Of a stretch of 64,000 nucleotides of DNA, positions 12,536-60,729 are shown piece after piece (positions within the stretch are counted from its first letter, which is position 1; each line of letters opens with the position of its first letter). The notes beneath the pieces were generated by a model that saw nothing but the letters and a program-made list of their open reading frames with translations, was not told the origin of the DNA and ran no database searches. The stretch spans positions 1 to 64,000 of the forward strand of contig DLJZ01000013.1 in the NCBI GenBank assembly GCA_002478865.1. The letters run 5' to 3'. The stretch is from Hungatella sp. UBA7603 (GTDB taxonomy: Bacteria; Bacillota; Clostridia; Lachnospirales; Lachnospiraceae). Made by a program: the position numbers and the translations under genes.

Positions 12536-12652
12536 GTTACTGTTGATTGGCATACACCAAGCGAAAGGAAAAGGACCCAATTCTGATAAATAATAGAATC
12601 GAATTTCTAAAATTTGACATACTAATTTTAATCTTTATAAATGGAGGTCATT

Positions 12653-27753: not shown

Positions 27754-28653
27754 TTACTTTATATAGGATAAGAATTTATCAATTGTAGGATTCGCGTTTT
27801 CGTTAAAGCGGGCGGCCACAATTTCAAATTTATCAGCTTCTTCATCAAGTGGAATTGTTACCAGATTTCCAGTGTTTCTACTGGATGAAAGAGCATAAGA
27901 GGGCAATACTGCGATTCCCATATTAGCAGCCACCATAAGTGCGGTTGTGTTAAAGTTTGCGGAATGCTGCACAATGTGAGGCGTAAAGCCGGACCGGATA
28001 AAATGAGCCATGGTGCTTTCAAAATGTCCAAAGCTGTCTTCCGCATCTCCAAAGGAAGTGAAAATAAAAGAATCATTTTTTAAGTCGTAAAGATTCAAAA
28101 TACTGCGATAAGCCAGAGGATGCGAGGTAGGAAGCATTACAATTAAATTGTACTTTTTCATGATCTTATAGGAAATATTTTTATCTTCCAGCTTGCTATA
28201 GGAAAACCGGGCATTGATAACCACATCAAGTGTCTGGTTCAATAGCTGCAAATATAAAGGACCTGCTCCTCCTTCCTGAATGGAAATGGAGATGTTGGGA
28301 TATCCGGTACGGAAGGAACGTAGAATGCCAGGAAGATCTGGGTTATCATACCCTTCAATAATTCCAAGATTTATATTTCCAGTAAAGCCGGTAGCGGCTT
28401 TTTTTGTTTTTTGAATTGCATTTTCAGTGCGGTTTAGTATTGCTTTTGATTCGGTTAAGAATATACTTCCTGCCGGGGTAAGCTCCACATGCCGCTTGGT
28501 CCGTTTTAATAGTTTTACTTCTATCTGTTCTTCTAATGCTTTGATTTGCTGTGTGACAGCCGTCTGAGAAATATAAAACTTTTCTGCTGTCTTTGTAAAA
28601 CTCAAAGTTTCTGCTACGGAAACAAAATATTCTAATTGTCTTAAATTCATCAA
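27754..28653 (-). CDS. LysR-family regulator of the divergent flavonoid/2-oxoacid operon
   Basis: The 299-residue LysR protein has an N-terminal winged helix (LRQLEYFVSVAETLSFTKTA, AVTQQIKALEEQI) and a two-lobed effector domain from about residue 90. It is transcribed away from the 12-gene operon starting at 28910. LysR proteins usually activate the divergent neighbour on binding a pathway metabolite, so a flavonoid or phenolic inducer is a reasonable guess. AGGAGGCCCTTG lies ahead of the start on the minus strand. Confidence 0.88.
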   Translation of the reverse strand: MMNLRQLEYFVSVAETLSFTKTAEKFYISQTAVTQQIKALEEQIEVKLLKRTKRHVELTPAGSIFLTESKAILNRTENAIQKTKKAATGFTGNINLGIIEGYDNPDLPGILRSFRTGYPNISISIQEGGAGPLYLQLLNQTLDVVINARFSYSKLEDKNISYKIMKKYNLIVMLPTSHPLAYRSILNLYDLKNDSFIFTSFGDAEDSFGHFESTMAHFIRSGFTPHIVQHSANFNTTALMVAANMGIAVLPSYALSSSRNTGNLVTIPLDEEADKFEIVAARFNENANPTIDKFLSYIK

Positions 28654-28909
28654 GGGCCTCCTTATGACAATACGCTATATATAACTAAAAATTATTATAA
28701 ACCATAAAAAAAGATTTGAAAACAATTTTCTTAATCGTTTGTAAAAAGTGCATAAAAACACATATTGTTATTTGATTATATTACTAAATAAATAAGTTTA
28801 TCTTATGAGAATCATCAAATAAAATATTGGATTTCAATAAAAAAATTCATTATGATAAGGAATAGATAAGAGATTAAATAGGTGACTTTTATCGGAAGGG
28901 AGAGATAAG
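28654..28909. promoter_or_regulatory. Divergent LysR/operon control region
   Basis: This 256-base, very AT-rich spacer contains ATAAG-TTTAT-CTTAT (28792-28806), an interrupted palindrome with the T-N11-A form of LysR boxes. It lies about 100 bases before the operon start codon. No strong consensus -35 was seen for the operon, as expected for an activator-dependent promoter. GGAAGGGAGAG precedes the start of the first gene. Confidence 0.5.
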
Positions 28910-29617
28910 ATGAGCAAAGAAGTTCCGATTATAGATGAGAAATATAATAATTTCTTATTTATTGGTGAAGCAGGTTGTGGAAAAAGTGAAATCGCAGTCA
29001 ATATAGCAAAGCAGCTTGTGGATTCAGGAAATAAGAAGGTACATTTCTTTGATATGGATATGACAAAATCGTTATTCCGTTCCAGGGATCTTAGCCGGAG
29101 CTTTACAGAGTTGGGAATTGATTTTCATTATGAAGAACAGTTTATGGATGCCCCAACTCTGGTAGGCGGCGTAAGTAGATTCCTAAAGGATGAGGAAACT
29201 TATGTTGTTATGGATGTAGGTGGAGATTACATTGGTGCCAGATCCATAGGTGGTTTTGCGCCCCTGATTAACCGAGGGGATACTATGGTTTATTACGTAA
29301 TTAATCCTTATCGACCATGGTCTTATGATCTGGAGCGCATTGATAAAGTGCTAAGTGAAATCTTAAGTGTATCACATATAGATATAGATAAGCTTCACTT
29401 AATTAGTAATCCTAATATAGGGTGTAATACCAATGAGATAGAAGTTCTAGAAGGGAATAAAGAACTTACAGAACTAATCATGCCTTATAAGGAACTGGAT
29501 TTTGTCTGTGTGAGAGAAGAACTTTTTGATAAGGTGAAGGATAAACTAAATATTCCTATAATGCCCTTGCATCTTTATCTTACCTATCCCTGGGTTGTAT
29601 CTATGGAGTCTGTATAA
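28910..29617 (+). CDS. P-loop NTPase, first gene of the flavonoid operon
   Basis: The 235-residue protein has a Walker A motif GEAGCGKSE (about residues 19-27), a VVMDVGGDYIGA segment resembling a Walker B/switch region (about 101-112) and a MinD/CobQ-like arrangement. It has no membrane segment. I do not recognise a named family. The position before ferredoxin and 2-oxoacid oxidoreductase genes suggests a metallocentre-loading or activating ATPase, in the way CooC or benzoyl-CoA-type activators serve their enzymes, but this is inference from context. It is 19 bases ahead of the ferredoxin subunit gene. Confidence 0.7.
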   Translation: MSKEVPIIDEKYNNFLFIGEAGCGKSEIAVNIAKQLVDSGNKKVHFFDMDMTKSLFRSRDLSRSFTELGIDFHYEEQFMDAPTLVGGVSRFLKDEETYVVMDVGGDYIGARSIGGFAPLINRGDTMVYYVINPYRPWSYDLERIDKVLSEILSVSHIDIDKLHLISNPNIGCNTNEIEVLEGNKELTELIMPYKELDFVCVREELFDKVKDKLNIPIMPLHLYLTYPWVVSMESV

Positions 29618-29636
29618 GAAGGAGGAAATGAAGGAT

Positions 29637-29840
29637 ATGGCTGAAATAAAAGTTGTGGCGGAACGCTGCAAAGGTTGTGGTTACTGCATTAAGTTCTGCC
29701 CCAAAAGCGTTTTGACTGTTGGAACAAAAGTGAATTCAAAGGGTTATGAATATGTGATTCCGTCAAATATGGAAGCTTGTATTGGTTGTTGCATTTGCGG
29801 AAAAATTTGTCCCGATGGTGCCATAGAAGTTTATAAGTAA
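29637..29840 (+). CDS. 2-oxoacid:ferredoxin oxidoreductase, ferredoxin (delta) subunit
   Basis: The 67-residue protein carries two [4Fe-4S] motifs, CKGCGYCIKFCP and CIGCCICGKICP, as in the delta subunits of VOR/KOR enzymes. The ATG at 29637 stands about ten bases after AAGGAGGA; the ATG at 29628 is too close to that site. It passes electrons from the TPP-bound intermediate to free ferredoxin or directly to a partner reductase. Confidence 0.88.
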   Translation: MAEIKVVAERCKGCGYCIKFCPKSVLTVGTKVNSKGYEYVIPSNMEACIGCCICGKICPDGAIEVYK

Positions 29841-29857
29841 TTAGGAGGTTATTGAAA

Positions 29858-30937
29858 ATGTCTAGAGTGTTTATGAAAGGCTGCGAAGCAATTGCAGAGG
29901 CAGCAGTTAGAGCCGGTTGTCGTTTTTTTGCTGGTTATCCAATTACTCCTCAGAATGAAATTCCGGAATATTTTGCGAGAAGAATGCCGGAAGTAAGCGG
30001 TAATTTTGTTCAGGGAGAATCAGAAGTAGCTTCCGTAAACATGGTGTATGGAGCTGCCAGTGCGGGTGTGAGATCCATGACTTCTTCATCAAGTCCTGGA
30101 ATTGCTCTAAAGAGCGAGGGAATATCTTACTGTGCATCAGCCAGAATCCCTATGGTCTATGTCAATGTTTCCCGAGGCGGCCCTGGAGTTGGTTCCATTC
30201 AGCCGGCGCAGATGGATTACTTTCAGGCTACCAAGGCATCCGGTAACGGCGGATTTCAGATGCTTGTATTTGCACCAGCATCCGTACAGGAAGCCGTTGA
30301 TATGACGTATCAGGCATTTGATTATGCAGACCGCGATCGTAATCCAGTGCTTATTTTGGCAGATGGTGTCATTGGAACTATGATGGAACCTGTCGTACTT
30401 CCAGAAATGAAAACGGATGAAGAGATTGCGTCCATCAAAGAATCAAAGAAATCCTGGTCCTGTATTGGACATTCACTGGACCTTGCAAACCGTTCATGGA
30501 TTCAGCCAGGACATTGGAAGACCAGCGATATGCAGGTAGCTAATGAAGAAGCGGCAGCTCTTTACACAAGTTGGGAAAAAGAGGCTCAGGCCGAAGAATA
30601 TCTAATTGAAGATGCAGAGGTAGTGATTACGGCTTATGGAATATCAGCACGTATCGCAAAAGCGGCTGTGGATTTATTACGGAAAGAGGGCATAAAGGTA
30701 GGACTTATCCGGGCCATAACCGTTCAGCCATTTCCTTACAACGCATTTGACCATATAGATTATAACAAGGTAAAAGCAATTCTTGATGTTGAGATGTCCA
30801 TTCCTGCCCAGTTTGTAACAGACGTGGAAACTGGTGTGAAAGGGCGCTGCCCTATTGAAACCTGCCTTTGCTCAGGCGGCAACATCATAAGCCGTGAGGC
30901 AGTAATGGAAGCAATAAGAAAAATGGTTTCCAAATAG
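29858..30937 (+). CDS. 2-oxoacid:ferredoxin oxidoreductase, alpha subunit
   Basis: The 359-residue pyruvate-ferredoxin-oxidoreductase N-terminal (pyrimidine-binding) subunit has FFAGYPITPQNEIPE, FVQGESEVASVNMVYGA and TSSSSPGIALKSEGISY. This form resembles VorB/KorA, which oxidise branched-chain 2-oxoacids or 2-oxoglutarate rather than pyruvate. It starts at the ATG nine bases after AGGAGG; the TTG at 29852 is rejected. The downstream Ptb/Buk pair implies the acyl-CoA product is converted to an acyl phosphate. Confidence 0.9.
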   Translation: MSRVFMKGCEAIAEAAVRAGCRFFAGYPITPQNEIPEYFARRMPEVSGNFVQGESEVASVNMVYGAASAGVRSMTSSSSPGIALKSEGISYCASARIPMVYVNVSRGGPGVGSIQPAQMDYFQATKASGNGGFQMLVFAPASVQEAVDMTYQAFDYADRDRNPVLILADGVIGTMMEPVVLPEMKTDEEIASIKESKKSWSCIGHSLDLANRSWIQPGHWKTSDMQVANEEAAALYTSWEKEAQAEEYLIEDAEVVITAYGISARIAKAAVDLLRKEGIKVGLIRAITVQPFPYNAFDHIDYNKVKAILDVEMSIPAQFVTDVETGVKGRCPIETCLCSGGNIISREAVMEAIRKMVSK

Positions 30938-30947
30938 GAGGGAAAAG

Positions 30948-31685
30948 ATGAAGCAGATTTATGCAAGAACAAAAACCATTCAGGAAGATAAAGTTTCTGG
31001 CTTTTGTCCTGGATGCATGCATGGCACTGTAATGAAGCTGATCGGTGAAGTATTAGATGAGATGAATTTAGTGGACAAGGCGGCTTGCGTCCTTGGAATC
31101 GGCTGCTGTGGTCTTCAGATGGACTATATGGCCTATGACAATACCACAGCCCCACATGGTCGTGCCTGTGCAGTGGCGACTGGAATGAAAAAGGCAAGCC
31201 CTGACAGTCTTGTATTTACCTATCAGGGAGATGGAGATTTTGCTTCCATCGGTTTGGCGGAATCCATGTCTGCAGCCAATCGTGGAGAGAATATCACAGT
31301 TATTTTCATTAATAATGGTATTTACGGTATGACTGGCGGACAATTGGCTCCTACCACCTTAGTAGGTATGAAGGCTAGTACCGCGCCAAAAGGTCGTGAT
31401 CCCAAGGAACATGGTTACCCTATGCACATGTGTGAGATATTAGAACAGCTGACTGCTCCGGCTTATTTAGAACGGACCAGCTGCAATACCCCAGTAAATG
31501 TAATGAAAACAAAGAAAGCAATTCAAAAAGCATTTCAAAACCAGCTTGAGGGTAAAGGATTTTCCATGGTAGAAATTGTCACCAGCTGTCCTACAAACTG
31601 GGGGCTTGATGCACTGAAATCTCTTGATTTTATAGAAGAGAAGATGCTCCCGGAATTTCCTCTGGGTGTAATCAGAGATCGATAA
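30948..31685 (+). CDS. 2-oxoacid:ferredoxin oxidoreductase, beta subunit (TPP-binding)
   Basis: The 245-residue protein has the TPP/Mg site GDGDFASIG followed by NNGIYGMTGGQLAPTT, plus cysteines in FCPGCMHG and GIGCCG that hold the proximal [4Fe-4S] cluster. It is the catalytic partner of the alpha subunit, encoded ten bases after it. Substrate range within the branched-chain/2-oxoglutarate group cannot be fixed from sequence alone. Confidence 0.9.
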   Translation: MKQIYARTKTIQEDKVSGFCPGCMHGTVMKLIGEVLDEMNLVDKAACVLGIGCCGLQMDYMAYDNTTAPHGRACAVATGMKKASPDSLVFTYQGDGDFASIGLAESMSAANRGENITVIFINNGIYGMTGGQLAPTTLVGMKASTAPKGRDPKEHGYPMHMCEILEQLTAPAYLERTSCNTPVNVMKTKKAIQKAFQNQLEGKGFSMVEIVTSCPTNWGLDALKSLDFIEEKMLPEFPLGVIRDR

Positions 31686-31698
31686 GGAGGAAAATTTA

Positions 31699-32244
31699 AT
31701 GGAGACAAATTTGTGTGTGGCCGGTTTTGGTGGACAGGGTGTTATGACCCTCGGAAAATTCCTGGCTTCGGCAACCTGTGATTCTACAAATAAAAATGTT
31801 ACGTTCTTCCCTTCTTACGGAGCGGAGCAAAGAGGTGGTACAGCAAATTGTTTTGTTGTTATTTCCGATGAAACCATTGGAGCACCTCTTGGTGATGTAA
31901 TGGATGATTTAGTTATCATGAACGGACCATCCTTACAAAAGTTTTTGCCAACATTAAAACAGGGTGGAACACTTTTTATTAACAGTTCTATTGTTACTGA
32001 TGAAATAGAAAGAAGCGACGTTAAAATAGTGAAAGCACCTGTTACGGAGCTTGCCTTGGAACTTGGAAATGCGAAGGTATTAAATGTTATTATGCTTGGA
32101 GCATATGTAGGATATACAAATGTTATTGATCCAGAAATTGTATGGTCAACCATTGAGCATAAACTGAAAAACAAACCAAAGCTCCTTCCTCTTAACAAAC
32201 TAGCTTTTGAAAGAGGTCTTTTAATTGGTCAGTCACAAAGATAA
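31699..32244 (+). CDS. 2-oxoacid:ferredoxin oxidoreductase, gamma subunit
   Basis: The 181-residue protein has the gamma-subunit signature AGFGGQGVMTLGKFLA and the PSYGAEQRGGTANC segment. It completes a four-subunit (delta, alpha, beta, gamma) enzyme in the usual VOR/KOR gene set. It starts after GATAAGGAGG, 13 bases from the previous stop. Confidence 0.9.
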   Translation: METNLCVAGFGGQGVMTLGKFLASATCDSTNKNVTFFPSYGAEQRGGTANCFVVISDETIGAPLGDVMDDLVIMNGPSLQKFLPTLKQGGTLFINSSIVTDEIERSDVKIVKAPVTELALELGNAKVLNVIMLGAYVGYTNVIDPEIVWSTIEHKLKNKPKLLPLNKLAFERGLLIGQSQR

Positions 32245-32256
32245 GGAGAGAGCCAG

Positions 32257-33159
32257 ATGATCTATAGAAGTTTTGATGAATTAATTGATAAAGTGAAAAA
32301 TTATCCTTCCATGAAACGAATGGTAATTGCAGCGGCAGGAGAAGAACATACTCTTGAAGCGGCTCTACATGCCAGAAAAGAAGGAATTGCCAGACCTATA
32401 TTAGTGGGTGATAAAGAAGTAATTCTTGGAATACTAAAAAAGCTTGGAGAAGAGGTTCCAGAAGAGGATATCTATCCAGCCACTGATAATAAAGAGGCCG
32501 CCGAATTTTCAGTCTCTTTGATACGAGAAGGAAAAGCAGATTTTTTAATGAAGGGTTATCTGGATACGGCTGTGCTTTTAAAGGCGGTGGTTGATAAAGA
32601 AAAAGGCTTGGGAAAAGGCGGTGTTATGTCTCATTTTTCGATGTTTGATGTTCCCTCCTATCATAAAATATTAGTGCCTGTAGACGGAGGCATGGTTGCC
32701 TATCCGACTCTGGAACAAAAGAAATCTATTATTGAAAATACGGTGGAAACTTTAAGATCCATGGGATATGACTGCCCGAAAGTGGGAGTCTTGACCTGCG
32801 TGGAAAAAGTGAATCCCAAAATGCCAGAAACAGTGGAAGCGGCAGAACTTGCTCGTATGAACCGGGAAGGCGAAATTAAGAACTGTATCATAGAAGGTCC
32901 TATTTCCTATGATTGTGCCATTGATGCAGAGATTGCCAATCTGAAAAACTATGAAAGCCAAATTGCTGGTGACGTAGATGTGCTAGTGGCTCCCAATATC
33001 CATGCAGGAAATATCATGGGTAAGATGCTAACTTGTACCTGTAAGGCAAAGATGGCTGGATTTGTAGTTGGAGCAAAATGTCCGATTGTATTAACTTCCA
33101 GAGGATCGTCTGCAGAGGAGAAATTCTTATCCATTGCAGTTTCAGCAGCAGTAGATTAG
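32257..33159 (+). CDS. ptb: Phosphate butyryltransferase-type phosphotransacylase
   Basis: The 300-residue protein is of the Ptb size and pattern (MVIAAAGEEHTLEAALHARKEG at the start with the HTLEA motif, and GPISYDCAIDAEIA later). It exchanges CoA for phosphate on butyryl- or branched acyl-CoA. In this operon it follows the 2-oxoacid oxidoreductase and precedes the kinase, so 2-oxoacid to acyl-CoA to acyl phosphate to ATP is a complete route. Confidence 0.92.
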   Translation: MIYRSFDELIDKVKNYPSMKRMVIAAAGEEHTLEAALHARKEGIARPILVGDKEVILGILKKLGEEVPEEDIYPATDNKEAAEFSVSLIREGKADFLMKGYLDTAVLLKAVVDKEKGLGKGGVMSHFSMFDVPSYHKILVPVDGGMVAYPTLEQKKSIIENTVETLRSMGYDCPKVGVLTCVEKVNPKMPETVEAAELARMNREGEIKNCIIEGPISYDCAIDAEIANLKNYESQIAGDVDVLVAPNIHAGNIMGKMLTCTCKAKMAGFVVGAKCPIVLTSRGSSAEEKFLSIAVSAAVD

Positions 33160-33174
33160 AGAAGGAGAAATACA

Positions 33175-34257
33175 ATGAGTTATAAAATTTTAGCAGTTAA
33201 TCCTGGCTCTACCTCCACAAAAATCGGGGTTTACGAAGGTGATAAAGAGTTATTTACAGAAAGTGTTACACATTCTGATGAAGAGTTAAAAAAGTATGAC
33301 AGAGTGGTAGATGAATTTGATATGCGTAAGGAAAATATTCTAAATGCACTAGAAAAACATGGCGTAGATGTGAAGGAATTATCTGCGATTGTGGGAAGAG
33401 GCGGCCAGCTGGTAAATATTCATGCAGGCGGTTATCTGGTTACAGAGGATATGAAAAAAAGGCTAACCGATCCATTCACCATTGAACACGCATCTAACCT
33501 GGGCGCATTAATCGCAGACGCCATTGCGGCTCCTCTGGGCATAACAGCCTATATTTATGATGCAGTGGGTTCTGATGAAATGGCAGAGATTGCAAAAGTA
33601 ACCGGAATGCCAGAGGTAGTAAGACAAAGTTTTTGTCATGTATTAAACTCCAAGGCCATGGCGAGAAAAGCAGCATTTGAAATGGGAAAAACATATCAGG
33701 AAATGAATTTTATCGTTGCCCATTTAGGTGGTGGAATCTCAGTCAGTGCTCATGAAAAAGGTAAAATAGTGGATGCAATCCCAGCGGATGGAGGTCCTTT
33801 TTCCCCAGAAAGATCAGGAAGCATACCATTAAATTACGTAATCGACATGTGTTACAGTGGAACTTACAGTAAAAGGGATATGAAGAAAAAGGTTTCTGGT
33901 ATGGGCGGTATGAAAGCCTATCTTGGCACTTCAAGCTGTATTGAAGTGGAAAAGATGATTCAGGATGGTAACGAGTTAGCAAAGAAAGTATTTCAGGCGC
34001 AAGCATACCAGATTGCGAAAGGAATCGGTGAACTCATCCCAGTTTTAAAGGGAGAAGTTGATGCTATCATTTTGACAGGCGGAGTGGCTCATTCCCAAAT
34101 GCTGACACAGTGGATTAAAGAATATGTAAGCAAGCTGGCTCCGATTATGGTTATGCCAGGGGAGAATGAACTGGAAGCTTTATCTGCAGGTGCCCTTCGT
34201 ATTTTAAAGGGAGAGGAAGAAGCAGAATCTTACATAGATTCCAGGAAAAACCAGTAG
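33175..34257 (+). CDS. buk: Butyrate kinase / branched-chain acid kinase
   Basis: The 360-residue ASKHA-fold kinase has the acetokinase-type N-terminal NPGSTSTKIGVY, central VAHLGGGISVSAHEKGKIVD, and C-terminal ILTGGVAHS. It makes ATP from acyl phosphate. Isobutyrate and isovalerate are also used by this family, matching a branched-chain VOR upstream. Start after GAGAAGGAG; 15 bases from ptb. Confidence 0.93.
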   Translation: MSYKILAVNPGSTSTKIGVYEGDKELFTESVTHSDEELKKYDRVVDEFDMRKENILNALEKHGVDVKELSAIVGRGGQLVNIHAGGYLVTEDMKKRLTDPFTIEHASNLGALIADAIAAPLGITAYIYDAVGSDEMAEIAKVTGMPEVVRQSFCHVLNSKAMARKAAFEMGKTYQEMNFIVAHLGGGISVSAHEKGKIVDAIPADGGPFSPERSGSIPLNYVIDMCYSGTYSKRDMKKKVSGMGGMKAYLGTSSCIEVEKMIQDGNELAKKVFQAQAYQIAKGIGELIPVLKGEVDAIILTGGVAHSQMLTQWIKEYVSKLAPIMVMPGENELEALSAGALRILKGEEEAESYIDSRKNQ

Positions 34258-34270
34258 AAAGGGAAATAAT

Positions 34271-35659
34271 ATGAAAGATAATTTTTATGCTAAGGGAGAG
34301 GGAAACAACGGTTTTATTAAAAATCTGGAAGTTTGCTCTTATGGCGATCTGGATGGTACCTGCGGGATGTTCCAGATGGCTCTTTATAAAACATCAGCAG
34401 GAAAGTACTATCTGTACGGCTGCTGTTTTGGCGGAACAAAGAACGGGGTAATGATTAGTGATATAACAGATCCTTATGATCCCAAATTTGTGAAGCACTT
34501 TGAACTCCTTGATCCTAAGGAGTATCCCACAACTACATCTCCTAAGATTCAGATTGCCGACGATCTGATGATTGTAGCCATGAGTTGTGGCAGCGGACCA
34601 GGAGCCCTTGTGGATCAGACAAAACTTGATGATATAAAATGTGAGGCAGGAATTCGTATTTACAGTCTGAAAAATGACCCAGAAAATCCAGAATTCTTGG
34701 GCTATTGGGATTGTGGCTTAAAGCATGTACTTGGAGTGCATCGTTTTCAGTATAACGGTGGAAGATATGTTCATTTATCCAGCGACTGCGTAGGCTTCGA
34801 AGGAATGATTTACCGCATTATTGATATTGAAGATCCGACTAATCCAGTGGAAGCAGGACGCTGGTGGAGACCAGATCAGTATGCAGACGGATACCCAGAT
34901 AGAAACTTTGATCCAGGTGCGGCTCACGTTCCTTCCTTTATGGATAAAGGCTGGCTTCACGGACCACCATTTGTCCGTGATGGAATCGCTTACTGCGGTT
35001 ATGGCGGAGCAGGACTGGTAGTTCTTGATGTTCAGGATGTAGAAAGACCGAAATGCCTGGGAGAATTATCGCTGATGCCTGCATTCTCCAGTGAATTGTC
35101 AGGGGCAAGAACCCATACAGCAGTCCCACTGCCGGGGCGTGATCTAGTCGTATGTCAAAACGAAGGAGAACGTTTCCAGTTCTTTACACCGGATAAGATA
35201 AAAAGAGCCCAGGCATTGAACAACATACACATGATCGATGTCAGCGATCCAAAACAGCCTACCTTAATAGCAGAGTTTCCATATCCGGAAGTTCCAAAGG
35301 ACTTTCCATATCCAAACTTTAATGTAGCTGGTCTTGGAGTGGCTGGCCCATTTGGTCCTCATAACCTTCATGAACCTATGGACAATAAACCATGGCTGGA
35401 GCAGAGAGGAGACCGTGTGTACTGCTGTTATTTCCATGCAGGATTGAGGGTTTATGATGTATCAGATCCATATTATATCAAGGAAATCGCTTACTTTATT
35501 CCACCAAATCCCAATAAAAAACCAGAAGAATCATTTTTCCCAGGTTTTCCGGGGCCTCGTATGGCGGTAACAGAGGATATTGTGGTAGATGATAGAGGTT
35601 ATATCATCATTGATGCGCTTGATGATGGATTTTATATTTTAAAAATGAGAGAAAATTAA
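34271..35659 (+). CDS. LVIVD-repeat beta-propeller protein, His-rich, uncharacterised
   Basis: The 462-residue protein is built of LVIVD-type repeats (GLVVLDVQDVERPKCLG, GLRVYDVSDPYYIKE and others), giving a seven-bladed propeller. No signal peptide or membrane segment is present, so it is cytoplasmic, unlike many LVIVD proteins. Conserved-looking histidines recur at blade starts (LGVHRF, YVHLSSD, AAHVPSF, WLHGPPF, ARTHTAV, FGPHNLHEP, YFHAGL). This is reminiscent of four-His iron sites in other propeller enzymes. Genes on both sides concern acyl phosphate metabolism and flavonoid conversion. A metal-dependent step on a phenolic intermediate is conceivable; no function is known to me. Confidence 0.7.
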   Translation: MKDNFYAKGEGNNGFIKNLEVCSYGDLDGTCGMFQMALYKTSAGKYYLYGCCFGGTKNGVMISDITDPYDPKFVKHFELLDPKEYPTTTSPKIQIADDLMIVAMSCGSGPGALVDQTKLDDIKCEAGIRIYSLKNDPENPEFLGYWDCGLKHVLGVHRFQYNGGRYVHLSSDCVGFEGMIYRIIDIEDPTNPVEAGRWWRPDQYADGYPDRNFDPGAAHVPSFMDKGWLHGPPFVRDGIAYCGYGGAGLVVLDVQDVERPKCLGELSLMPAFSSELSGARTHTAVPLPGRDLVVCQNEGERFQFFTPDKIKRAQALNNIHMIDVSDPKQPTLIAEFPYPEVPKDFPYPNFNVAGLGVAGPFGPHNLHEPMDNKPWLEQRGDRVYCCYFHAGLRVYDVSDPYYIKEIAYFIPPNPNKKPEESFFPGFPGPRMAVTEDIVVDDRGYIIIDALDDGFYILKMREN

Positions 35660-35681
35660 TATTCACACGAAAAAGGAGATT

Positions 35682-36626
35682 ATGATGAAGGTTTTAGGTA
35701 TTTCTTTTGGAACAAAGAACGGAACAAATGATTCTATCTGTATGGAAGCGCTAATAGGAGCGAAGGAAACAGGTGCTGAGGTAGAGTTTATCAGAATGTC
35801 ATCACTGGATATCAAGCATTGTACCGGTTGTTGTGCTTGCGTAAAGACACTTTTAGGTGGAAAAGGAAATATGTGTGTAATAAAGGATGACTTTGACTGG
35901 CTTTTAGACAAAATGCTTGATGCAGATGGAATTATTATATCTGATCCTATCTTTGAGGAAGGGGCTTCTGGCCTATTCCATACTATTATGGATCGTTTCG
36001 GACCTAGAATGGACCGTGGAAACAACATCATTGGTTCCAAGGTAGCAGAGGAGAATGGTGGAAAAGCAATCGATCCAAGGATTCTAAAGGATAAAGTGAT
36101 TTCTTATATGGGAGTAGGAGGTTCTGACTGGGGAACCAGAGTTCAATGCGAACATGCTATGCAGGCTCTCACCCCAATGTGGAAGATCATTGATAATACC
36201 TGGTACCCATGGGCGAAAGAGCTCATTATGGATGACGTACGTTTGGCTGAAGTACATAAAATCGGTGTGAAATTGGCAAATGCCGCAAAAGATGTGGAGA
36301 GTGCTGCTTATCAGGGAGAAGAAGGATTATGTCCTCATTGTCATAATAAGCTCTTTTATCTGGATAACGAATCTACAAATGCCATCTGTGGCTTATGCGG
36401 AATGGTGGGAGATGTTGTGATTGAAGATGGAAAGACAAAATTTGTTTTCCCAGTGGAACAGTTAGAACATGCTCATGACACAATTCCAGGAAAGTTTATC
36501 CATGGAGATGATATTCAGCGCATGGAAGGTGCATTCGCAAAAGTGCGGCAGACAGAAGAGTTTAAGGCACGTAAGAAACGCTATACGGATTCTATTGTTT
36601 CTTCATTTTTATGTGAACGCGTATAA
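35682..36626 (+). CDS. Flavodoxin-fold FMN oxidoreductase, candidate flavone/flavonol reductase
   Basis: The 314-residue protein starts with an NADPH-dependent FMN-reductase/iron-sulfur-flavoprotein fold (KVLGISFGTKNGTNDSICMEAL). A CTGCCACVKT cysteine cluster sits near residues 47-56, and a zinc-ribbon-like module (CPHCHNKLFYL, AICGLCGM) near 216-245. The chalcone isomerase gene two genes downstream makes a flavonoid ene-reductase role likely, since flavone reductases of gut clostridia are, as I recall, of this general type. A paralogue is at 59751-60716. Substrate and the presence of an Fe-S cluster are unproven. Confidence 0.68.
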   Translation: MMKVLGISFGTKNGTNDSICMEALIGAKETGAEVEFIRMSSLDIKHCTGCCACVKTLLGGKGNMCVIKDDFDWLLDKMLDADGIIISDPIFEEGASGLFHTIMDRFGPRMDRGNNIIGSKVAEENGGKAIDPRILKDKVISYMGVGGSDWGTRVQCEHAMQALTPMWKIIDNTWYPWAKELIMDDVRLAEVHKIGVKLANAAKDVESAAYQGEEGLCPHCHNKLFYLDNESTNAICGLCGMVGDVVIEDGKTKFVFPVEQLEHAHDTIPGKFIHGDDIQRMEGAFAKVRQTEEFKARKKRYTDSIVSSFLCERV

Positions 36627-36629
36627 AAC

Positions 36630-37127
36630 ATGAACAACAAAAAGAAAGAAACCCTTATATTAGCTCTGGCTATTGCAGTTTTACCGCCCTTATGGGCGGT
36701 AGCTGCACCACTCCTGGGTATCAAGACAGGAGCTGTGGCATTGATTTGTGCCGGGCTTTACACAACCAATGGAAGTCGGCTTGAAGATGGTTTAAAGATT
36801 ACCACAGGCTTTTGGCTGGGTGATTTATGGGCTGTCCTTTCTTTGCTGATTATGGAAGGAGTAAATTGGAACGAATCTCTGGAACTGTTTTTTATACTGG
36901 CAGTTTTAGGTGCATTGGCAATCATTGCCGCATCTTTATTGGAACGATTCGTATTTCTTCCATCCTGGTTATGCGGCTGGGCAATTGGTTTAAGTTTGAT
37001 GTCCCCTCTAAGTTTGCAGGCGGATAAAACGATACCTCTACAAATTGGTATCGCCATGGCAGTGGGGGTATGGTACGTGGGAGCTGGAGTGGATTACTTT
37101 ACAAAAATATTGTTACGAAGAAAATAG
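36630..37127 (+). CDS. Small DUF1097-like membrane protein
   Basis: The 165-residue protein has four to five hydrophobic segments (about 9-27, 35-50, 68-80, 86-106, 135-155) and resembles the YcdZ/DUF1097 group. It starts three bases after the reductase stop with no obvious ribosome site, so translation is probably coupled. A transport-accessory or channel role is possible; I cannot name one. Confidence 0.65.
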   Translation: MNNKKKETLILALAIAVLPPLWAVAAPLLGIKTGAVALICAGLYTTNGSRLEDGLKITTGFWLGDLWAVLSLLIMEGVNWNESLELFFILAVLGALAIIAASLLERFVFLPSWLCGWAIGLSLMSPLSLQADKTIPLQIGIAMAVGVWYVGAGVDYFTKILLRRK

Positions 37128-37143
37128 AAATGGGGGAATTAAC

Positions 37144-37980
37144 ATGGCAGTAGAATTTAATCCTATGAGGAGTTTTATTTATGTAGATGTAATAGATGAA
37201 GAATACAGGCACAGACTGCACCATTGGTTATATTATCATCATATTCCGGAAAGTATTGCTCAGTTTGAACCATATTGTACCAAATATGCTTTTTTTGATG
37301 CTCTTCCGGTACCTAATGGAGGAGAGCGGTTTGGTACCGTGCGTATGCAGTTGACCGAACACCACTGGACGGTAAATATAATGGATCCAGCGTTAAAGGT
37401 AAAAGCCTTTCAGGAATACACCCCCATTGAAGTCTTAAAATGGCAGGGTACGGTTCCTCAAACCGTTGGTGAGACAATGTTAACTGGAGATGCAGGACGC
37501 AGCACCGGTGGTAACAATGGCTGTCCGCCTTTTGTTTTTGCTTTTTGCCCTATGTGGTGGGAAGAAGATATTAAAGGAACTGGCCGTATGCTGGGAGATG
37601 GTCCGAATTACCGCTGGAACTTTGCTTTATCCTATCCAGAAGGAGTATCACAGGAAGAAGGAGATCAGTGGCTGTTTGAAGAAGTGTTCCCATTTTTCAC
37701 TGAGAATTCCTGCTGTACAAGAATTCTTACCAGTAAAGTGAATCAGAAAATTAACAATTGTCCTATGGGACGAGTAGTAGAGATGTGGTTTACCGGCCCT
37801 ACAGCCTGGCATCATATGGCTGTTGAAATATCAGATAATATAAAGGCACCGTTCTGGGCAGCCAAAGGAGATGCATTTCCTTATTTAAAACCAGGCTTTG
37901 AAATCAGAGGGATTTTTATTACCGATTGTCCAACTTGTGATGCTTACAGCCAATACCGCGGATATATGCCCAGAAGATAG
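37144..37980 (+). CDS. chi: Bacterial chalcone isomerase (Eubacterium ramulus type)
   Basis: The 278-residue protein matches, as I remember it, the E. ramulus chalcone isomerase over its length: PMRSFIYVD near the start, HHIPESIAQFEPYCTKYAFF, RMQLTEHHW, FAFCPMWWEEDIKGTGR, DAFPFLK-like DAFPYLKP and a YRGYMPRR end. The catalytic His33 is present. The family folds as ferredoxin-like alpha/beta barrels, unrelated to plant CHI. It interconverts flavanones and chalcones and also rearranges taxifolin to alphitonin. Start: ATG at 37144 after GGGGGAATTAAC; earlier in-frame ATGs lie inside the preceding gene. This is the key evidence that the operon handles flavonoids. Confidence 0.9.
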   Translation: MAVEFNPMRSFIYVDVIDEEYRHRLHHWLYYHHIPESIAQFEPYCTKYAFFDALPVPNGGERFGTVRMQLTEHHWTVNIMDPALKVKAFQEYTPIEVLKWQGTVPQTVGETMLTGDAGRSTGGNNGCPPFVFAFCPMWWEEDIKGTGRMLGDGPNYRWNFALSYPEGVSQEEGDQWLFEEVFPFFTENSCCTRILTSKVNQKINNCPMGRVVEMWFTGPTAWHHMAVEISDNIKAPFWAAKGDAFPYLKPGFEIRGIFITDCPTCDAYSQYRGYMPRR

Positions 37981-37995
37981 AGGAGAATTAAAGAA

Positions 37996-39210
37996 ATGAA
38001 ATGGAAACGATGGCTTTATGCCGCAATGGGAGTTCTGGTGCTTTTATTTGCAGGACTTATTTATGCCTGGAGTGTTCTTTCCAGGCCGGTAGCAGCGTAT
38101 TTTACTGATTGGAGCAGTGCACAGCTTTCCCTGACCTTTACCATCTGTATGATGTTTTTTTGTCTGGGCGGTTTTTTCTCCGGTCTTTTCTCCGGAAAAA
38201 TAAATGTTAAAATCAATATGGTTATTTCTGCTTTTTTGTTTTTAGCAGGATTCTTTCTCGCTTCAAAAACCAGTTCCCTGCCAGGTCTGTACATAGGATA
38301 CGGAGTCCTTTGCGGAACAGCCTCAGGGATTGCCTATAATTCCATTATGGGCACCGTAACGAAATATTTTCCGGATAAGCCGGGTCTTATATCAGGAATT
38401 CTTTTAATGGGATTTGGATTCGGAAGTTTCTTAATTGGAAAGGTGTATCAGGCTTTTACCGGATCAGGAGAAAGCTTTAGAAAATCCTTTTTGCTTTTTG
38501 GAATCATTCTTTTTATAGTTATGCTTTTGTGTGCATTATTTATTAAGAAACCAGATGCCGCAGAGACGGCAGCTTTGATAGAAATGATCACAGAGGATAG
38601 TAAGAGTGGAGATACAGCTGTAACAGAGGATATGAACTTCCGTCAAATGATAAGAAGGAGTTCTTTTTGGCTCTATTTTTTCTGGGCGATTCTGTTATGT
38701 GCCGCTGGGCTTGCTGTGATATCTCAGGCTGGAGCCATAGCAGTAGAAGTGGCACCGAAAGCTTCGGCAGGCACTATTTCCACGGTTGTGGGGCTGGTTT
38801 CGATTTTTAACGGAGTCGGACGTGTAATATTCGGTGAAATGTATGACCGGATCGGACGGGGAAAGACTATGGTTATCAATGAAATATTGTATTGCAGTGC
38901 CATAGTTCTTCTGATTTTATCGTTGAGTACAGGGAGTTTTCTTATTCTGACGATAGGATTTATAATAACGGGGCTTGCCTATGGAGGTGTGCCGACCACG
39001 AACTCTGCCTTCGTAGGTTCCTTTTATGGAAAAAAGCATTATAGCATTAACTTTTCTGTTTTGAATATGAATCTGTTTTTCGCCTCTTTTGGAAGTACCA
39101 TTGCGGGCTTCCTCTACGATTCCAGCGGCTCTTATTTTAGTACGCTGTTATTCCTACTCGGCGCAATCGTAGTAGGCATAATAATATCCATGATGATTAA
39201 AAAACCATAA
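37996..39210 (+). CDS. OFA-type MFS carrier, last gene of the operon
   Basis: The 404-residue protein has twelve predicted membrane segments and oxalate/formate-antiporter family traits (AGLIYAWSVLSRPVAAYF, GIAYNSIMGTVTKYFPDKPGLISGILLMGFG, GRVIFGEMYDRIGRGKTM). The family carries small mono- and dicarboxylates or phenolic acids, often by exchange. Export of phenylpropionate-type or branched acids, or uptake of the aglycone, would fit this operon. It is followed by hairpin repeat copy 1, which acts as terminator. Confidence 0.85.
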   Translation: MKWKRWLYAAMGVLVLLFAGLIYAWSVLSRPVAAYFTDWSSAQLSLTFTICMMFFCLGGFFSGLFSGKINVKINMVISAFLFLAGFFLASKTSSLPGLYIGYGVLCGTASGIAYNSIMGTVTKYFPDKPGLISGILLMGFGFGSFLIGKVYQAFTGSGESFRKSFLLFGIILFIVMLLCALFIKKPDAAETAALIEMITEDSKSGDTAVTEDMNFRQMIRRSSFWLYFFWAILLCAAGLAVISQAGAIAVEVAPKASAGTISTVVGLVSIFNGVGRVIFGEMYDRIGRGKTMVINEILYCSAIVLLILSLSTGSFLILTIGFIITGLAYGGVPTTNSAFVGSFYGKKHYSINFSVLNMNLFFASFGSTIAGFLYDSSGSYFSTLLFLLGAIVVGIIISMMIKKP

Positions 39211-39218: not shown

Positions 39219-39269
39219 TATTTATAAATCAGAAACGGATGCTGTCCACAATAGAAGACAACATCCGTT
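39219..39269 (+). repeat. 51-bp hairpin repeat, copy 1
   Basis: This copy matches 42675-42725 at 48 of 51 positions. Within it AACGGATGCTGTC pairs with GACAACATCCGTT, so it forms a terminator-like stem right after the OFA carrier gene. A truncated MFS gene starts four bases beyond its end. Confidence 0.85.
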
Positions 39270-40329: not shown

Positions 40330-42621
40330 ATGTTAGAAAACTGGATTACAAATGAAACATCTTCACCATTTTATGCAAGAAAAAATTTCACAATAGTAAA
40401 AACGGTTGAAAAGGCCAAAGCTAAGGTTTGTGGTTTGGGGCAGTTCAATTTTTATATCAATGGGAAAAAGGTGGATGACCATGAATTAGATCCAGGGTGG
40501 ACGGACTATAAAAAGTTAATACAGTATGTGGCATTTGACATAACGCCTTATTTAAAACAGGGAGAAAATGTGCTTGGAGCGGAGGTTGGGAACGGCTGGT
40601 TTATTAAAACGGATGAACATTACACCTTTACATTTCCAGAGTTTATGCCGCCTAACCCGAATCCATATCAGCCCTTCGGGAAATATCTGGTGCTGGCAAT
40701 GGAGATAATAATTACTTTTACAGATGGAACCAGTATGAGTATTACTGCAGACGATACATTTACAGTAATGAAACATAAAACTGTAATGAGCAATGTATAT
40801 GGTTCGGAGACGATTGACGGACGATTGATTCAACAAGGCTGGTGTGAGGCGGGGTTTGATGATTCAAACTGGAAACGTGCAGTCATCGTGGATAATAAGG
40901 ATGCACCTAAAGGAAAGTTAATAGAGCAGTTCCAGCCTGCAATCAAAGTACTTCGAACTTATGAAGGAAAATTGCTGAAGCATATAAATGGGCGGGATAT
41001 TTATGATTTTGGACAGAATATGTCTGGGATACTTGAATTTGGGGTAAAGGGAAAAGCTGGTGATGTGGTTAAAATTTATCCCGCTGAAAAGCTGCAGGAT
41101 AATGGAGATGTAGATCAGATGGCTAAAAATTGGGTAAATGTGAATTCCTGCATTACCTATATTATTGGACAGAATAATGTATGGGAGACATGCAGAATGA
41201 CATTTACCTACTTTGCCGGACGGTTTATAGCAATGGAAAAAACCCATGCTTCTACTGTATGTAATCTGAAAGCTCATGCAATTTCCAGCGCCCATGTGAC
41301 TCATGGCAGCTTTACCTGTGATGATAGCCGTTATGAAAAGATTTACAGCATGATAGAAAAAACTGTGGAAGCAAATATGGTAAGTGTACATACAGACTGT
41401 CCGACGATTGAGCGGTTTGCATGGCAGGAGCCGAACCACCTGATGGCGCCGTCAATCTTTTATATTAAAGATGGAAAAAAGCTATGGGAGAAATTTTTAC
41501 TGGATATGAGGATAGGCCAGCATACGGCAGATGATTTTTTGTCCGATTATGCTGGAAATAAGTTTTATCCCGGAGAAGGGTTAATGCCTTCCCAGTGTCC
41601 CTGTTACATTCCAAATGTGCTTCCGGTACCGGGGATGGGCAGTTTCTATGATATCATTCCGTGGGGGAGTACCTGTATTCTTGGGGCATACTGGCATTAT
41701 ACGTTTTATGGAGATGTGAAGATAATTGAGGAGAATTATCAGGCAGGTATGTTCTATCTAAACCATCTGAAAGCGAAGGTAACGGATGAGGGCTTTATCA
41801 ATCACGGTTTAGGTGACTGGGGAAATCCCCAAAATGAATTGGCACGTGAGAATATAGAGACCGCGTTCCTGTATGCAGATGCCACCATTCTTGCTAAGTT
41901 TGCAGAGATTCTTGGATATGAAGCTGACCGGGCGCAGCTAAATGCTTATTCTGAAGAAATAAAGAAGAACTATAATGAAAAGCTGATGGTCCTACATTCG
42001 GATAAAGAATTTTGGTGCTATAAATCATGGGATCATCCGGATGAAGTTTTCCTGACCCAGGCAGCTCAGGCACTGCCATTGTTCTGGGGTATTGTACCGG
42101 AGGATAAAAAAGCCGATGTAGTGAAAGCCCTGCATTATACTTTAGAGCGGGATGGCGCATTTATATGCGGTGAAGTGGGACTCCCCTATGTGATTCAGAG
42201 TGCCTGCAGGTATGGTATGAACGACATAATCAGCAAGTTTATTATGAGGGAAGAACATCCCAGCTATTACGCGTTTATTCTGGATGGAGAGACAACTTTG
42301 GGAGAGTATTGGGAGAAAAATCCAAGGAGCCACTGCCATGATATGATGGGTCATATCATGGAATGGTATTATAATGGAATTGCAGGGATTATTCCTGAGA
42401 AACCTGGATTTTCGAAGGTTACAATCCGTCCATATTTACCAGAAAGTATAAAAGAGTTTCATTGTAGTTATGAATCGATACAAGGATTTATACGGGTGCA
42501 TGTTAAGGAGAGTGAGAAGAAAATCCTACTTGAAATAGAATTGCCCAAAGACGTTGAATATAATCTGGATACATCAAATCTGGAATCAAGAGGGAAAAAA
42601 ATAGTAGTGCAAGCTCGATGA
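40330..42621 (+). CDS. GH78 alpha-L-rhamnosidase
   Basis: The 763-residue protein has an N-terminal carbohydrate-binding beta-sandwich (FYINGKKVDDHELDPGWTDY), a second sandwich, an (alpha/alpha)6 barrel from about 330, and a C-terminal sandwich. Catalytic-region motifs are HTDCPTIERFAWQEP (the usual DCPxRxE region) and LDGETTLGEYWEKN with the base Glu. No signal peptide is present. It removes terminal rhamnose from rutin-, naringin- or hesperidin-like flavonoid rutinosides/neohesperidosides or from plant glycans. ATAAGGAGAGC precedes the ATG. It is enclosed, with the truncated MFS gene, by the two 51-bp repeats. Confidence 0.9.
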   Translation: MLENWITNETSSPFYARKNFTIVKTVEKAKAKVCGLGQFNFYINGKKVDDHELDPGWTDYKKLIQYVAFDITPYLKQGENVLGAEVGNGWFIKTDEHYTFTFPEFMPPNPNPYQPFGKYLVLAMEIIITFTDGTSMSITADDTFTVMKHKTVMSNVYGSETIDGRLIQQGWCEAGFDDSNWKRAVIVDNKDAPKGKLIEQFQPAIKVLRTYEGKLLKHINGRDIYDFGQNMSGILEFGVKGKAGDVVKIYPAEKLQDNGDVDQMAKNWVNVNSCITYIIGQNNVWETCRMTFTYFAGRFIAMEKTHASTVCNLKAHAISSAHVTHGSFTCDDSRYEKIYSMIEKTVEANMVSVHTDCPTIERFAWQEPNHLMAPSIFYIKDGKKLWEKFLLDMRIGQHTADDFLSDYAGNKFYPGEGLMPSQCPCYIPNVLPVPGMGSFYDIIPWGSTCILGAYWHYTFYGDVKIIEENYQAGMFYLNHLKAKVTDEGFINHGLGDWGNPQNELARENIETAFLYADATILAKFAEILGYEADRAQLNAYSEEIKKNYNEKLMVLHSDKEFWCYKSWDHPDEVFLTQAAQALPLFWGIVPEDKKADVVKALHYTLERDGAFICGEVGLPYVIQSACRYGMNDIISKFIMREEHPSYYAFILDGETTLGEYWEKNPRSHCHDMMGHIMEWYYNGIAGIIPEKPGFSKVTIRPYLPESIKEFHCSYESIQGFIRVHVKESEKKILLEIELPKDVEYNLDTSNLESRGKKIVVQAR

Positions 42622-43549: not shown

Positions 43550-44404
43550 ATGGCTTGTGTATATAGTACGGGAAAAGTAATGGTAAGCCCTAGGACTTGT
43601 GGAAAGAAGATGAATGAGTGTACCATGGAGGATTTAAGATCCATGACGGCAGCGCTTACAAAAGAAGAGAGCCAATCAGTTTATGCAAAGTATTATAAGG
43701 AGCCACTTGCGGATATTCAGCCGGAACATGTAAGGGCAATAGAACACGGCACCTTAAATCCTGATGAATGCTATATGCCAGAACTGGCTGGAGGCGTACT
43801 ACTTGATGGCGATAGTAAATATCGGGACAATGGGTATGGGGTATTGCCAAATGGCGTAGGCTTTGCAGCAATTAAAATAGCACAGGACGTTACAAATGAG
43901 ATGATACGAGACTATCAGGAAAATTTTGCTAATGACAAAAACTGTAACCTGTTTTATAAAACATGGTATCCAGGGGCTCATCTCATTCATTTTGAAGATG
44001 GTGCGGTTGAGGACTTTGGCTGGGGAATGATGCGGATGGAGATGAATTGGAACAACTTTCGTTTTGAGCATCTGGGAATCCATGAAGAAGACATCTCTAA
44101 GCGTGATCCCCACTGTATCTTTCTCATGGGACTTGGAGGGAAAGCAGAGGAGATAAATGAGGCTCAAACAAGGGAAAGAGTTATGTGTATGGTACAGCAT
44201 ACAAGAGAAACTGCCACAGGCCGGGAATTAAAAGTTCATTACTGGAATGGCATGACTTTTCAGGAAGATGGAACGCTTATCTGTAAGCCGGAGCCAGACC
44301 GAGATAAAACGATGAGAGAGATGAAATTAATGATGATTCACTGTATGACGGAGTATTGCAATCAGGTAAAACTGATAAAAGAATTTTGGAACAGGAAAAC
44401 GTGA
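43550..44404 (+). CDS. PhlG / phloretin hydrolase-like C-C hydrolase
   Basis: The 284-residue protein resembles diacetylphloroglucinol hydrolase (PhlG) and E. ramulus phloretin hydrolase. Family features are a PNGVGFAAIKIAQDVTNEMI segment, YKTWYPGAH with His144, TGRELKVHYWNG, and HCMTE with His264 and Glu268. The HxxxE spacing equals that of the PhlG zinc ligands as I recall them. Phloretin hydrolase cuts the C-C bond of dihydrochalcones to give phloroglucinol and a phenylpropionate. Overall similarity is distant, so the acyl-phloroglucinol substrate is inferred from family and context. GGAGGAATCAAC precedes the ATG. Confidence 0.7.
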   Translation: MACVYSTGKVMVSPRTCGKKMNECTMEDLRSMTAALTKEESQSVYAKYYKEPLADIQPEHVRAIEHGTLNPDECYMPELAGGVLLDGDSKYRDNGYGVLPNGVGFAAIKIAQDVTNEMIRDYQENFANDKNCNLFYKTWYPGAHLIHFEDGAVEDFGWGMMRMEMNWNNFRFEHLGIHEEDISKRDPHCIFLMGLGGKAEEINEAQTRERVMCMVQHTRETATGRELKVHYWNGMTFQEDGTLICKPEPDRDKTMREMKLMMIHCMTEYCNQVKLIKEFWNRKT

Positions 44405-53202: not shown

Positions 53203-53230
53203 ACTAAATTAAAAAAGGAGCCAAATCATT

Positions 53231-53617: not shown

Positions 53618-53634
53618 CATAGGGAGGAAATGGG

Positions 53635-54687: not shown

Positions 54688-54695
54688 TATTAAAA

Positions 54696-54739
54696 TACCG
54701 GAGGAATCAAAGAGAGTTAGTGCTTTGGTTTCTCCGGTA
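54696..54739 (+). terminator. Hairpin after the C-glycoside deglycosidase genes
   Basis: A 17-base arm starting TACCGGAGGAA (54696-54712) pairs with one ending TTTCTCCGGTA (54723-54739), with two G-U pairs. The T-run is weak, so it may only attenuate read-through into the next genes. In the rest of this 262-base spacer a TATAAT at 54902-54907 lacks a -35 box. Confidence 0.6.
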
Positions 54740-54949
54740 CTGTTATCTTAAGGGTATAAATATATGGATAATATTAATGGATATAAGAAATATTTAATAT
54801 TTTCCTTATAATCGTATTTATTAAGGTGAAATAGATTAAAAATACCGGAATAAAAGCTGATATTATAGTGAAAATATCGAGAAACTATTTGAGATAAATT
54901 ATATAATTATACTTGTTAATTCGGATTGTTCTGAAAGGAAGTTATATAT

Positions 54950-56407: not shown

Positions 56408-56418
56408 TGGAGGGGATT

Positions 56419-60716: not shown

Positions 60717-60729
60717 AAGGAGGGGTAGT

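Follow-up and report, generated by a model that had tools for sequence, protein, structure and literature searches.

Purified enzymes of Clostridium scatologenes were reported in 2026 to convert 4-hydroxyphenylpyruvate to 4-hydroxyphenylacetate with formation of ATP (PMC13285125). They are a four-subunit 2-oxoacid:ferredoxin oxidoreductase (OFOR), HpdDEFG, and homologues of Ptb and Buk, HpdJ and HpdK, described as a 4-hydroxyphenylpyruvate:ferredoxin oxidoreductase, a phosphate 4-hydroxyphenylacetate (HPA)-transferase and an HPA kinase; together they yield an acid, ATP and reduced ferredoxin from a 2-oxoacid. Arylacetates also arise from flavonols: rumen fluid yields 3,4-dihydroxyphenylacetate when given quercetin or rutin (PMC8780962), and Catenibacillus decagia forms it in culture from quercetin, taxifolin and alphitonin, while Clostridium scindens forms 3,4-dihydroxyphenyllactate from quercetin (PMC11170127). 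Dihydroxyphenylpyruvate, produced beside phloroglucinol by cleavage of alphitonin, was proposed in 2024 as a hypothetical common intermediate (PMC11170127). Two earlier steps have known enzymes, namely the flavone/flavonol reductase FLR of Flavonifractor plautii (structures 7D38-7D3B; PMC7862272) and the chalcone isomerase CHI, which turns taxifolin into alphitonin by ring contraction with His33 as catalytic residue (PMC9694015). Here we describe an operon in a 64,000-nucleotide stretch of Hungatella sp. UBA7603 (the window; contig DLJZ01000013.1, positions 1 to 64,000) in which both sets of genes stand together and which probably encodes the fermentation of flavonols to arylacetates with a gain of ATP.

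The operon shares with the Hpd system the OFOR and the Ptb and Buk homologues (hereafter the trio). The Hpd 2-oxoacid comes from tyrosine and its cluster carries HPAD, whereas the trio of the window is joined to FLR, CHI and an LVIVD propeller, and its 2-oxoacid would come from a flavonol; flavonoids, quercetin and polyphenols go unmentioned in the main text of PMC13285125. With the flavonol route of Eubacterium ramulus and C. decagia, on the other hand, the operon shares the FLR and CHI chemistry, the product 3,4-dihydroxyphenylacetate and the proposed dihydroxyphenylpyruvate, but the passages that describe this route (PMC11170127, PMC9694015) name no genes for cleavage of alphitonin or oxidation of the phenylpyruvate. 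The F. plautii paper concerns the same reductase, and in the passages on the enzyme an operon, a gene cluster and LysR go unmentioned (PMC7862272). Finally, the branched-chain VOR of Clostridium sporogenes and the aromatic VOR-like OFORs of Blautia hydrogenotrophica are similar in sequence to the OFOR of the window but are described in an amino-acid context, with aminotransferases at multiple loci (PMC13290082). Among open-licence PubMed Central full texts, we found no paper joining CHI, a ferredoxin oxidoreductase and butyrate kinase. Dihydroxyphenylpyruvic, quercetin and phloroglucinol were found together only in PMC11170127, an auronol term and ferredoxin oxidoreductase had no joint mention among the matches listed, and the sole match for LVIVD with flavonoid was unrelated by title. 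A title on transcript or protein data from quercetin-grown E. ramulus was likewise not among the matches listed. What appears to be new is that the two are united and that the missing steps are assigned, the trio and the flavonoid enzymes each being known already.

The initial annotation of this region had described a twelve-gene, one-strand operon with a divergent LysR gene, a layout borne out by the gene map and by domain searches. The twelve genes lie on the + strand (28910-39210), each with an ATG start, and the LysR-type regulator gene (27754-28653, - strand; PF03466, PF00126) diverges from them across a gap of 256 bases. The intergenic gaps are short, as had been claimed, and range from 3 to 22 bases rather than from 3 to 25. 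The full operon with its LysR gene is also present at another locus (L083), and a third (L002) has it without LVIVD, with the LysR orthologue in the same place at both, which makes the arrangement more than chance. Judging from the short gaps and the conserved divergent regulator, we read the twelve genes as one LysR-linked operon. The next gene begins 62 bases past its end, and a 14-pair stem (39234-39269) follows the last operon gene. Promoter-like matches (29, against 32.1 in shuffles) and terminator-like matches (12, against 9.9) in the operon region were at chance level.

Both flavonoid enzymes were assigned to known families. The FMN_red protein encoded at 35682-36626 (+) aligns over residues 2-306 to the crystallised FLR 7D38 with 457 bits, a full-length likeness and not one of fold alone. 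It is a good member of the FLR family, and reduction of flavones or flavonols is predicted for it. The product of the gene at 37144-37980 (+) matches the Chalcone_N domain PF18232 with 170 bits (cut-off 25) and the E. ramulus CHI 4D06 with 300 bits; with positions numbered by hand, the catalytic His33 is present in 10 of 10 aligned CHIs and His73 is also conserved. It is a good member of the bacterial CHI family, for which isomerisation of flavanonol to auronol is predicted. PF16035 was rejected as a model for CHI, as it matched nothing in the window's genome or in the controls; the correct family is PF18232. Between the two genes lies one for a small membrane protein (36630-37127, +; DUF1097, PF06496) that adjoins CHI or FLR also in L001, L002, L083, L015 and L190, and the last gene of the operon (37996-39210, +; PF07690) encodes a carrier of the major facilitator superfamily, labelled OFA in the initial annotation.

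Upstream of these genes, and also on the + strand, stand those of the trio. They encode a ferredoxin-like delta subunit (29637-29840; Fer4, with OGOR_delta/PorD-like matches below cut-off), an alpha subunit that is VorB-type by name (29858-30937; NF005507, 430.5 bits, cut-off 399), the beta subunit that binds thiamine pyrophosphate (30948-31685; PF02775) and the gamma subunit (31699-32244; PF01558) of the OFOR, followed by a phosphate acyltransferase of the Ptb family (32257-33159; TIGR02706, 319.5 bits, below the butyryl cut-off of 410.5) and an acyl kinase of the Buk family (33175-34257; TIGR02707 butyrate kinase, 461 bits, cut-off 289). A four-subunit OFOR and homologues of Ptb and Buk are thus found in one cluster, as in the Hpd trio, and we propose that the last two act as a phosphate arylacetyltransferase and an arylacetate kinase.

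In the proposed route, FLR would reduce a flavonol (quercetin) to a flavanonol (taxifolin), and CHI would convert the latter by ring contraction to an auronol (alphitonin). Alphitonin would then be split into phloroglucinol and 3,4-dihydroxyphenylpyruvate by a hydrolase, for which the LVIVD propeller is the likeliest candidate and a protein resembling phloretin hydrolase (PHY) the other. Oxidation of this 2-oxoacid by the four-subunit VOR would release CO2 and reduced ferredoxin and leave arylacetyl-CoA, from which Ptb and Buk would form 3,4-dihydroxyphenylacetate and ATP. In sum, quercetin and 2 H2O would give phloroglucinol, 3,4-dihydroxyphenylacetate and CO2 with about 1 ATP and with no other donor or acceptor. 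The computed element balance closes at each step and for the net quercetin reaction, and the 2 electrons used by FLR therefore equal the 2 released by the OFOR. The flavonol would serve as both electron donor and acceptor, with reduced ferredoxin presumably feeding FLR. Flavones, which have no 3-hydroxyl, cannot form an auronol and would not feed the trio. The flow of electrons from ferredoxin to FLR is inferred, and so is the substrate assigned to each of VOR, Ptb, Buk and LVIVD. While a fermentation of flavonols to arylacetate and ATP is the likely function of the operon, the stricter version, in which a single flavonol is fermented in a self-contained and redox-neutral manner and LVIVD is a new C-C hydrolase opening auronols to phloroglucinol and arylpyruvate, is put forward more tentatively, as a possibility somewhat short of an even chance.

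A link between flavonoid and 2-oxoacid genes had already been claimed, and co-occurrence of vor with chi in related genomes had been set beforehand as one of its checks. A survey of 397 genomes of the family was made with three queries, for which the E cut-offs were 1e-110 for vorA and 1e-20 for LVIVD, with remoter OFORs and propellers uncounted. CHI (PF18232) was found in 14 of them, the window's own included. The count excludes weak PF18232 paralogues of 22-33 bits; these are extra proteins in six CHI-positive genomes, each with a full CHI (G430:C39, G408:C47, G473:C26, G567:C10, G520:C21 and G692:C63; L077-L082), and they are perhaps another CHI-fold enzyme of the pathway. The VOR alpha subunit of the window's type was found in 18 genomes, comprising all 14 with CHI (13 at 75% identity or more, one at 71%) and four CHI-negative ones at 63-71%, and the claimed link held up in this respect. 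LVIVD was found in 15, namely all 14 with CHI at 59% identity or more and one weak 35% match without CHI. The hypergeometric chance of such overlap with CHI is 1.4e-22 for VOR and 6.8e-25 for LVIVD when counted by genome, and 5.5e-19 and 3.9e-21 when counted by genus (12 CHI-positive of 334), all uncorrected for kinship. A second, overlapping set consisted of the genomes of 28 CHI loci, of which 26 have VOR and 24 an LVIVD match (in G716 only a 42% relative). Those lacking VOR or an LVIVD match are assemblies of 1.5-2.5 Mb, and the CHI contig of one (G715) ends inside LVIVD. Conversely, a search of 61 other genomes, each carrying a relative of the operon's ATPase or of VOR or else a weak LVIVD match, yielded no CHI, positives appearing only in parallel searches of the same family, and no CHI was found in G025, G145, G236, G014 or G184 in a search in which five other genomes were positive. 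Taken together, the co-occurrence supports the view that VOR-Ptb-Buk belongs with the flavonoid genes.

The same association could arise if unrelated neighbours merely had a common ancestry or were transferred jointly. One arrangement is indeed common to the window, L083 and L002, and CHI-positive vorA sequences do cluster on a tree: among the 37 rows of the alpha-subunit tree, which carries a long-branch warning for G567b and G236, 19 of the 21 CHI-positive rows fall in one 21-row group (94/91, not starred) whose two CHI-negative members are G025 and G145; both copies of CHI-positive G567 lie outside it. The CHI-positive label requires 5 changes on this tree against a shuffled mean of 12.3, although near-copies favour such clustering, while the CHI-negative label is unclustered (7 changes against a shuffled mean of 8.2). 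Against ancestry or joint transfer as the whole explanation, the association spans twelve genera and several gene orders, mostly on separate contigs, and extends to a locus of another family with another order (L190) and to one with a non-orthologous OFOR (L191). We consider such an origin of the pattern very unlikely.

The gene orders themselves were compared across loci; for L085, L089-L094 and L151-L155 they come from gene strings in which only chosen neighbours were put through Pfam. Genes of the set stand together in at least three orders across genomes. The operon is complete in L083, and in L002 only LVIVD is missing from it. The order is CHI-ATPase-OFOR-ptb-buk-OFA-unknown-FLR with a divergent LVIVD gene in L086-L088, CHI-buk-ATPase-OFOR in L109, and FLR-regulator-ptb-buk-CHI in L095, whose OFOR lies on a separate contig (L140). 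Two runs distant from CHI read ptb-buk-ATPase-OFOR (L141) and buk-ATPase-OFOR (L146), and in L015 and L106 LVIVD adjoins CHI with no OFOR on the stretch. A survey of the class gave a PF18232 match in 4 of 270 genomes, the window's own included. One of the others, G859, belongs to another family and carries LVIVD-CHI-FLR-DUF1097-regulator-ptb-ATPase-OFOR-buk in a single run (L190). The second, G899, also outside the family, has ptb, buk and IorA/IorB beside CHI-FLR (L191; CHI 57% and FLR 58% identical to those of the window), and the third, G959, has only a weaker CHI relative (29%) beside FLR (62%; L192).

These outlying loci also bear on the substrate of the trio. The OFOR of L191 is not of the VOR type: its subunits pass the IorA (705.9 bits, cut-off 650.9) and IorB (273.2, cut-off 230) models, and the Ior family acts on indole-, phenyl- and hydroxyphenylpyruvate (PMC13285125). 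In a matrix of identities, the Buk of L191 is 69% identical to that of L190, 50-53% to those of seven other CHI-positive genomes, 40% to that of CHI-positive G567 and, among CHI-negative genomes, 42% to those of three. For its Ptb, CHI-positive and CHI-negative genomes are not set apart (47-61% against 41-51%). On the L190 stretch there are genes for a 4-hydroxyphenylacetate decarboxylase (1692 bits against a cut-off of 1150) and for the activase of this enzyme (548 bits against 420). Regulators separate the activase gene from the cluster, which is about 3 kb away, and the enzyme pair could also serve tyrosine. The IOR of L191 and the decarboxylase of L190 point to aryl 2-oxoacids and arylacetates as substrates.

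A number of observations weigh against a flavonol fermentation by the whole set. In the 28-locus set, CHI occurs without VOR in G715 and G723, and without an LVIVD match in G723, G726, G734 and G735. L002 lacks LVIVD, its genome having only a 42% relative. Conversely, the VOR type occurs without CHI in G145 (74% identity, 99% complete), without CHI or LVIVD found in G025 (84% identity, 74% complete), and in the four CHI-negative genomes of the family survey (G457, G524, G633 and G662; 63-71%). Among the 14 CHI-positive family genomes, VOR is absent from the fetched CHI stretch in 11, some on short contigs, and the VOR stretch is without ptb or buk in 9, E. ramulus included. Ptb, buk and OFOR share a stretch in three of the four CHI-negative family genomes (L151-L153), with transketolase, transaldolase and FAA hydrolase genes (L152) or a transporter permease (L153) as neighbours. 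As regards the chemistry, FLR was fed in vitro with FMNH2 made using NADH (PMC7862272), not with ferredoxin, and taxifolin is degraded by C. decagia and C. scindens, for neither of which CHI is mentioned in the passages on that degradation (PMC11170127). As regards the substrate, the best model for the alpha subunit is the branched-chain VorB, and the VOR type of G145 has an aminotransferase and an acyl-CoA hydrolase/transferase for neighbours. L086 carries an aminotransferase gene (PF00155) some 2.6 kb away from CHI, and L087 and L088 each have a similarly sized gene at the corresponding position. Because the trio stands in CHI-negative genomes, it is not by itself a marker of flavonoid metabolism; the marker is the combination of the OFOR subtype with LVIVD and CHI.

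The last group of observations would suit a Stickland-like pairing, as proposed in the initial annotation, in which VOR-Ptb-Buk oxidises branched-chain 2-oxoacids from amino acids and the flavonoid is a separate acceptor; OFOR loci with Ptb and Buk do serve amino-acid oxidation elsewhere (PMC13290082). The name of the VOR model is a weak guide to substrate, since two VOR-like enzymes prefer aromatic 2-oxoacids (PMC13290082). Moreover, neither an aminotransferase nor an amino-acid reductase is among the domain matches in the operon (28910-39210), the rest of the window's genome being unchecked, the OFOR at one CHI locus (L191) is an arylpyruvate-type IOR, and an amino-acid module need not track CHI so closely. 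The flavonol route is itself thought to give an aryl 2-oxoacid, the reduced form of which was found in a quercetin degrader (PMC11170127). The pairing of VOR-Ptb-Buk with flavonoid genes stands, resting on the 14 of 14 genomes, and it is plausible that the trio forms an acid and ATP with flavonoid reduction as electron sink. Amino acids as source of the 2-oxoacid are less well supported, and the Stickland-like pairing as a whole seems unlikely. The 2-oxoacid probably comes from the flavonol, which would be more economical in that one molecule provides both acceptor and donor.

Ptb and Buk might alternatively make butyrate and ATP from the A-ring, by way of phloroglucinol, acetoacetate and butyryl-CoA, with VOR only balancing redox. 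Butyrate kinase is among the proteins of phloroglucinol-grown C. scatologenes (PMC10470551), and the ptb of the operon is the only strong TIGR02706 match in the host assembly, which is 3.1 Mb in size and 68% complete. Yet ptb and/or buk cluster with VOR at eight CHI loci (the window, L002, L083, L086-L088, L109 and L190), with IOR in L191, and with VOR away from CHI in two more CHI-positive genomes (L141, L146). We recognised no phloroglucinol gene among the genes of the operon, the rest of the genome not having been searched for such genes. We regard this role as quite improbable, and retain arylacetate as the predicted product of Ptb and Buk.

For the cleavage of alphitonin, the operon itself offers one candidate. 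This LVIVD propeller (34271-35659, +; PF08309) was modelled by AlphaFold with a mean predicted local distance difference test score of 90.7. The best match of the model in Foldseek was the metal-dependent phosphotriesterase propeller 5HRM (E 6e-17, TM 0.64, 16% identity, root-mean-square deviation 7.0 A), about 7 orders of magnitude ahead of the next protein, and a profile search also gave 5HRM (E 1.2e-5 when the sequence is taken as a whole, though no individual stretch is significant). Among PDB structures, VIA-align 2 placed WD40 propellers such as Ski8 first, which shows the propeller only. His157, His230, His282 and His364 are invariant in 41 aligned sequences (at least 62% identical to the window's), made up of the window's protein and 40 of the 120 listed among 2,458 homologues, and the same four recur in L015 and in the copies of L190, L086 and L106, which are more divergent. 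Four such residues would suit a metal site. Given that it tracks CHI across genomes, LVIVD is the best hydrolase candidate within the operon.

It may also be that the main route holds and that the auronol is cleaved by the PHY-like protein encoded outside the operon (43550-44404, +; PF18089, 46.7 bits, cut-off 22.7) or by unaided chemistry, with LVIVD in some other flavonoid-linked role. The bond that phloretin hydrolase cuts is that of an aryl ketone, and alphitonin in its open form belongs to this class. The L002 operon does without LVIVD, and LVIVD is also not on the L191 stretch, which counts against it as the hydrolase. The presence of LVIVD with CHI in 14 of 14 genomes, and near CHI in several gene orders, argues the other way, and we judge cleavage by PHY or without an enzyme somewhat unlikely; this alternative overlaps the preferred flavonol route, which allows for either protein as the hydrolase. 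A 206-residue gene next to CHI in L191 was considered as a phloretin hydrolase and rejected (nothing in Pfam, 20 bits by BLASTP to the PHY of the window, 12.6 bits in the PDB).

The first gene of the operon (28910-29617, +) encodes a P-loop ATPase with a weak CbiA match (22 bits, below the cut-off of 25.4). Its surroundings were examined in 29 of 65 other ATPase-positive genomes; a relative (25-66% identity) lies upstream of fdxD in 29 of 29 loci (L031-L059) and of vorA too in 28 of 29, the contig of the remaining one ending. Because it is widespread ahead of fdxD and vorA, the ATPase goes with VOR and not with the flavonoid genes, and it was dropped as one of the latter. It may serve in maturation of the oxidoreductase or in loading its cofactors.

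Several further features were noted around the operon and at the distant loci. An alpha-L-rhamnosidase gene outside the operon (40330-42621, +; PF17389, PF08531) would fit removal of rhamnose from rutin-like glycosides. A one-strand run at 52099-62707 encodes Gfo/Idh and TIM-barrel proteins, a FAD_binding_2 protein and NuoG/GltD-like and NuoF-like proteins, with a second FLR-like gene (59751-60716) inside it, and resembles a flavonoid cluster for C-glycosides or electron transfer. We take its Gfo/Idh and TIM-barrel genes (about 52-62.7 kb) to resemble DgpA/DgpC of C-deglycosylation systems. In L192 (1-11000), FLR and the distant CHI relative have nearby genes for a NuoG/GltD-like protein (46% identical to that of the window) and a NuoF-like one (29%), a pair that hints at a role in electron transfer to flavonoid reduction. 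The CHI clusters of the two other families carry sigma-54 activators with a PrpR_N ligand domain (L190 5782-7650, L191 6124-7977), with LysR-like genes also nearby. Elsewhere in the window, a gene for a protein of the prismane/CO dehydrogenase family (12641-14563, 497 bits) follows sugar-transport-like genes and precedes a GntR-like regulator, these neighbours being judged by eye.

The proposed route provides candidate genes for each step from alphitonin to 3,4-dihydroxyphenylacetate, for which the literature that we found names no enzymes, and it would give an energy reason for flavonol degradation. The presence or absence of the OFOR could explain why some flavonol degraders make phenylacetates and others phenyllactates. 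The gene set may be used to predict the flavonol-to-arylacetate trait from genomes and, if the route is true, CHI, LVIVD and the dedicated OFOR would be a marker set for bacteria that make arylacetates from flavonols.

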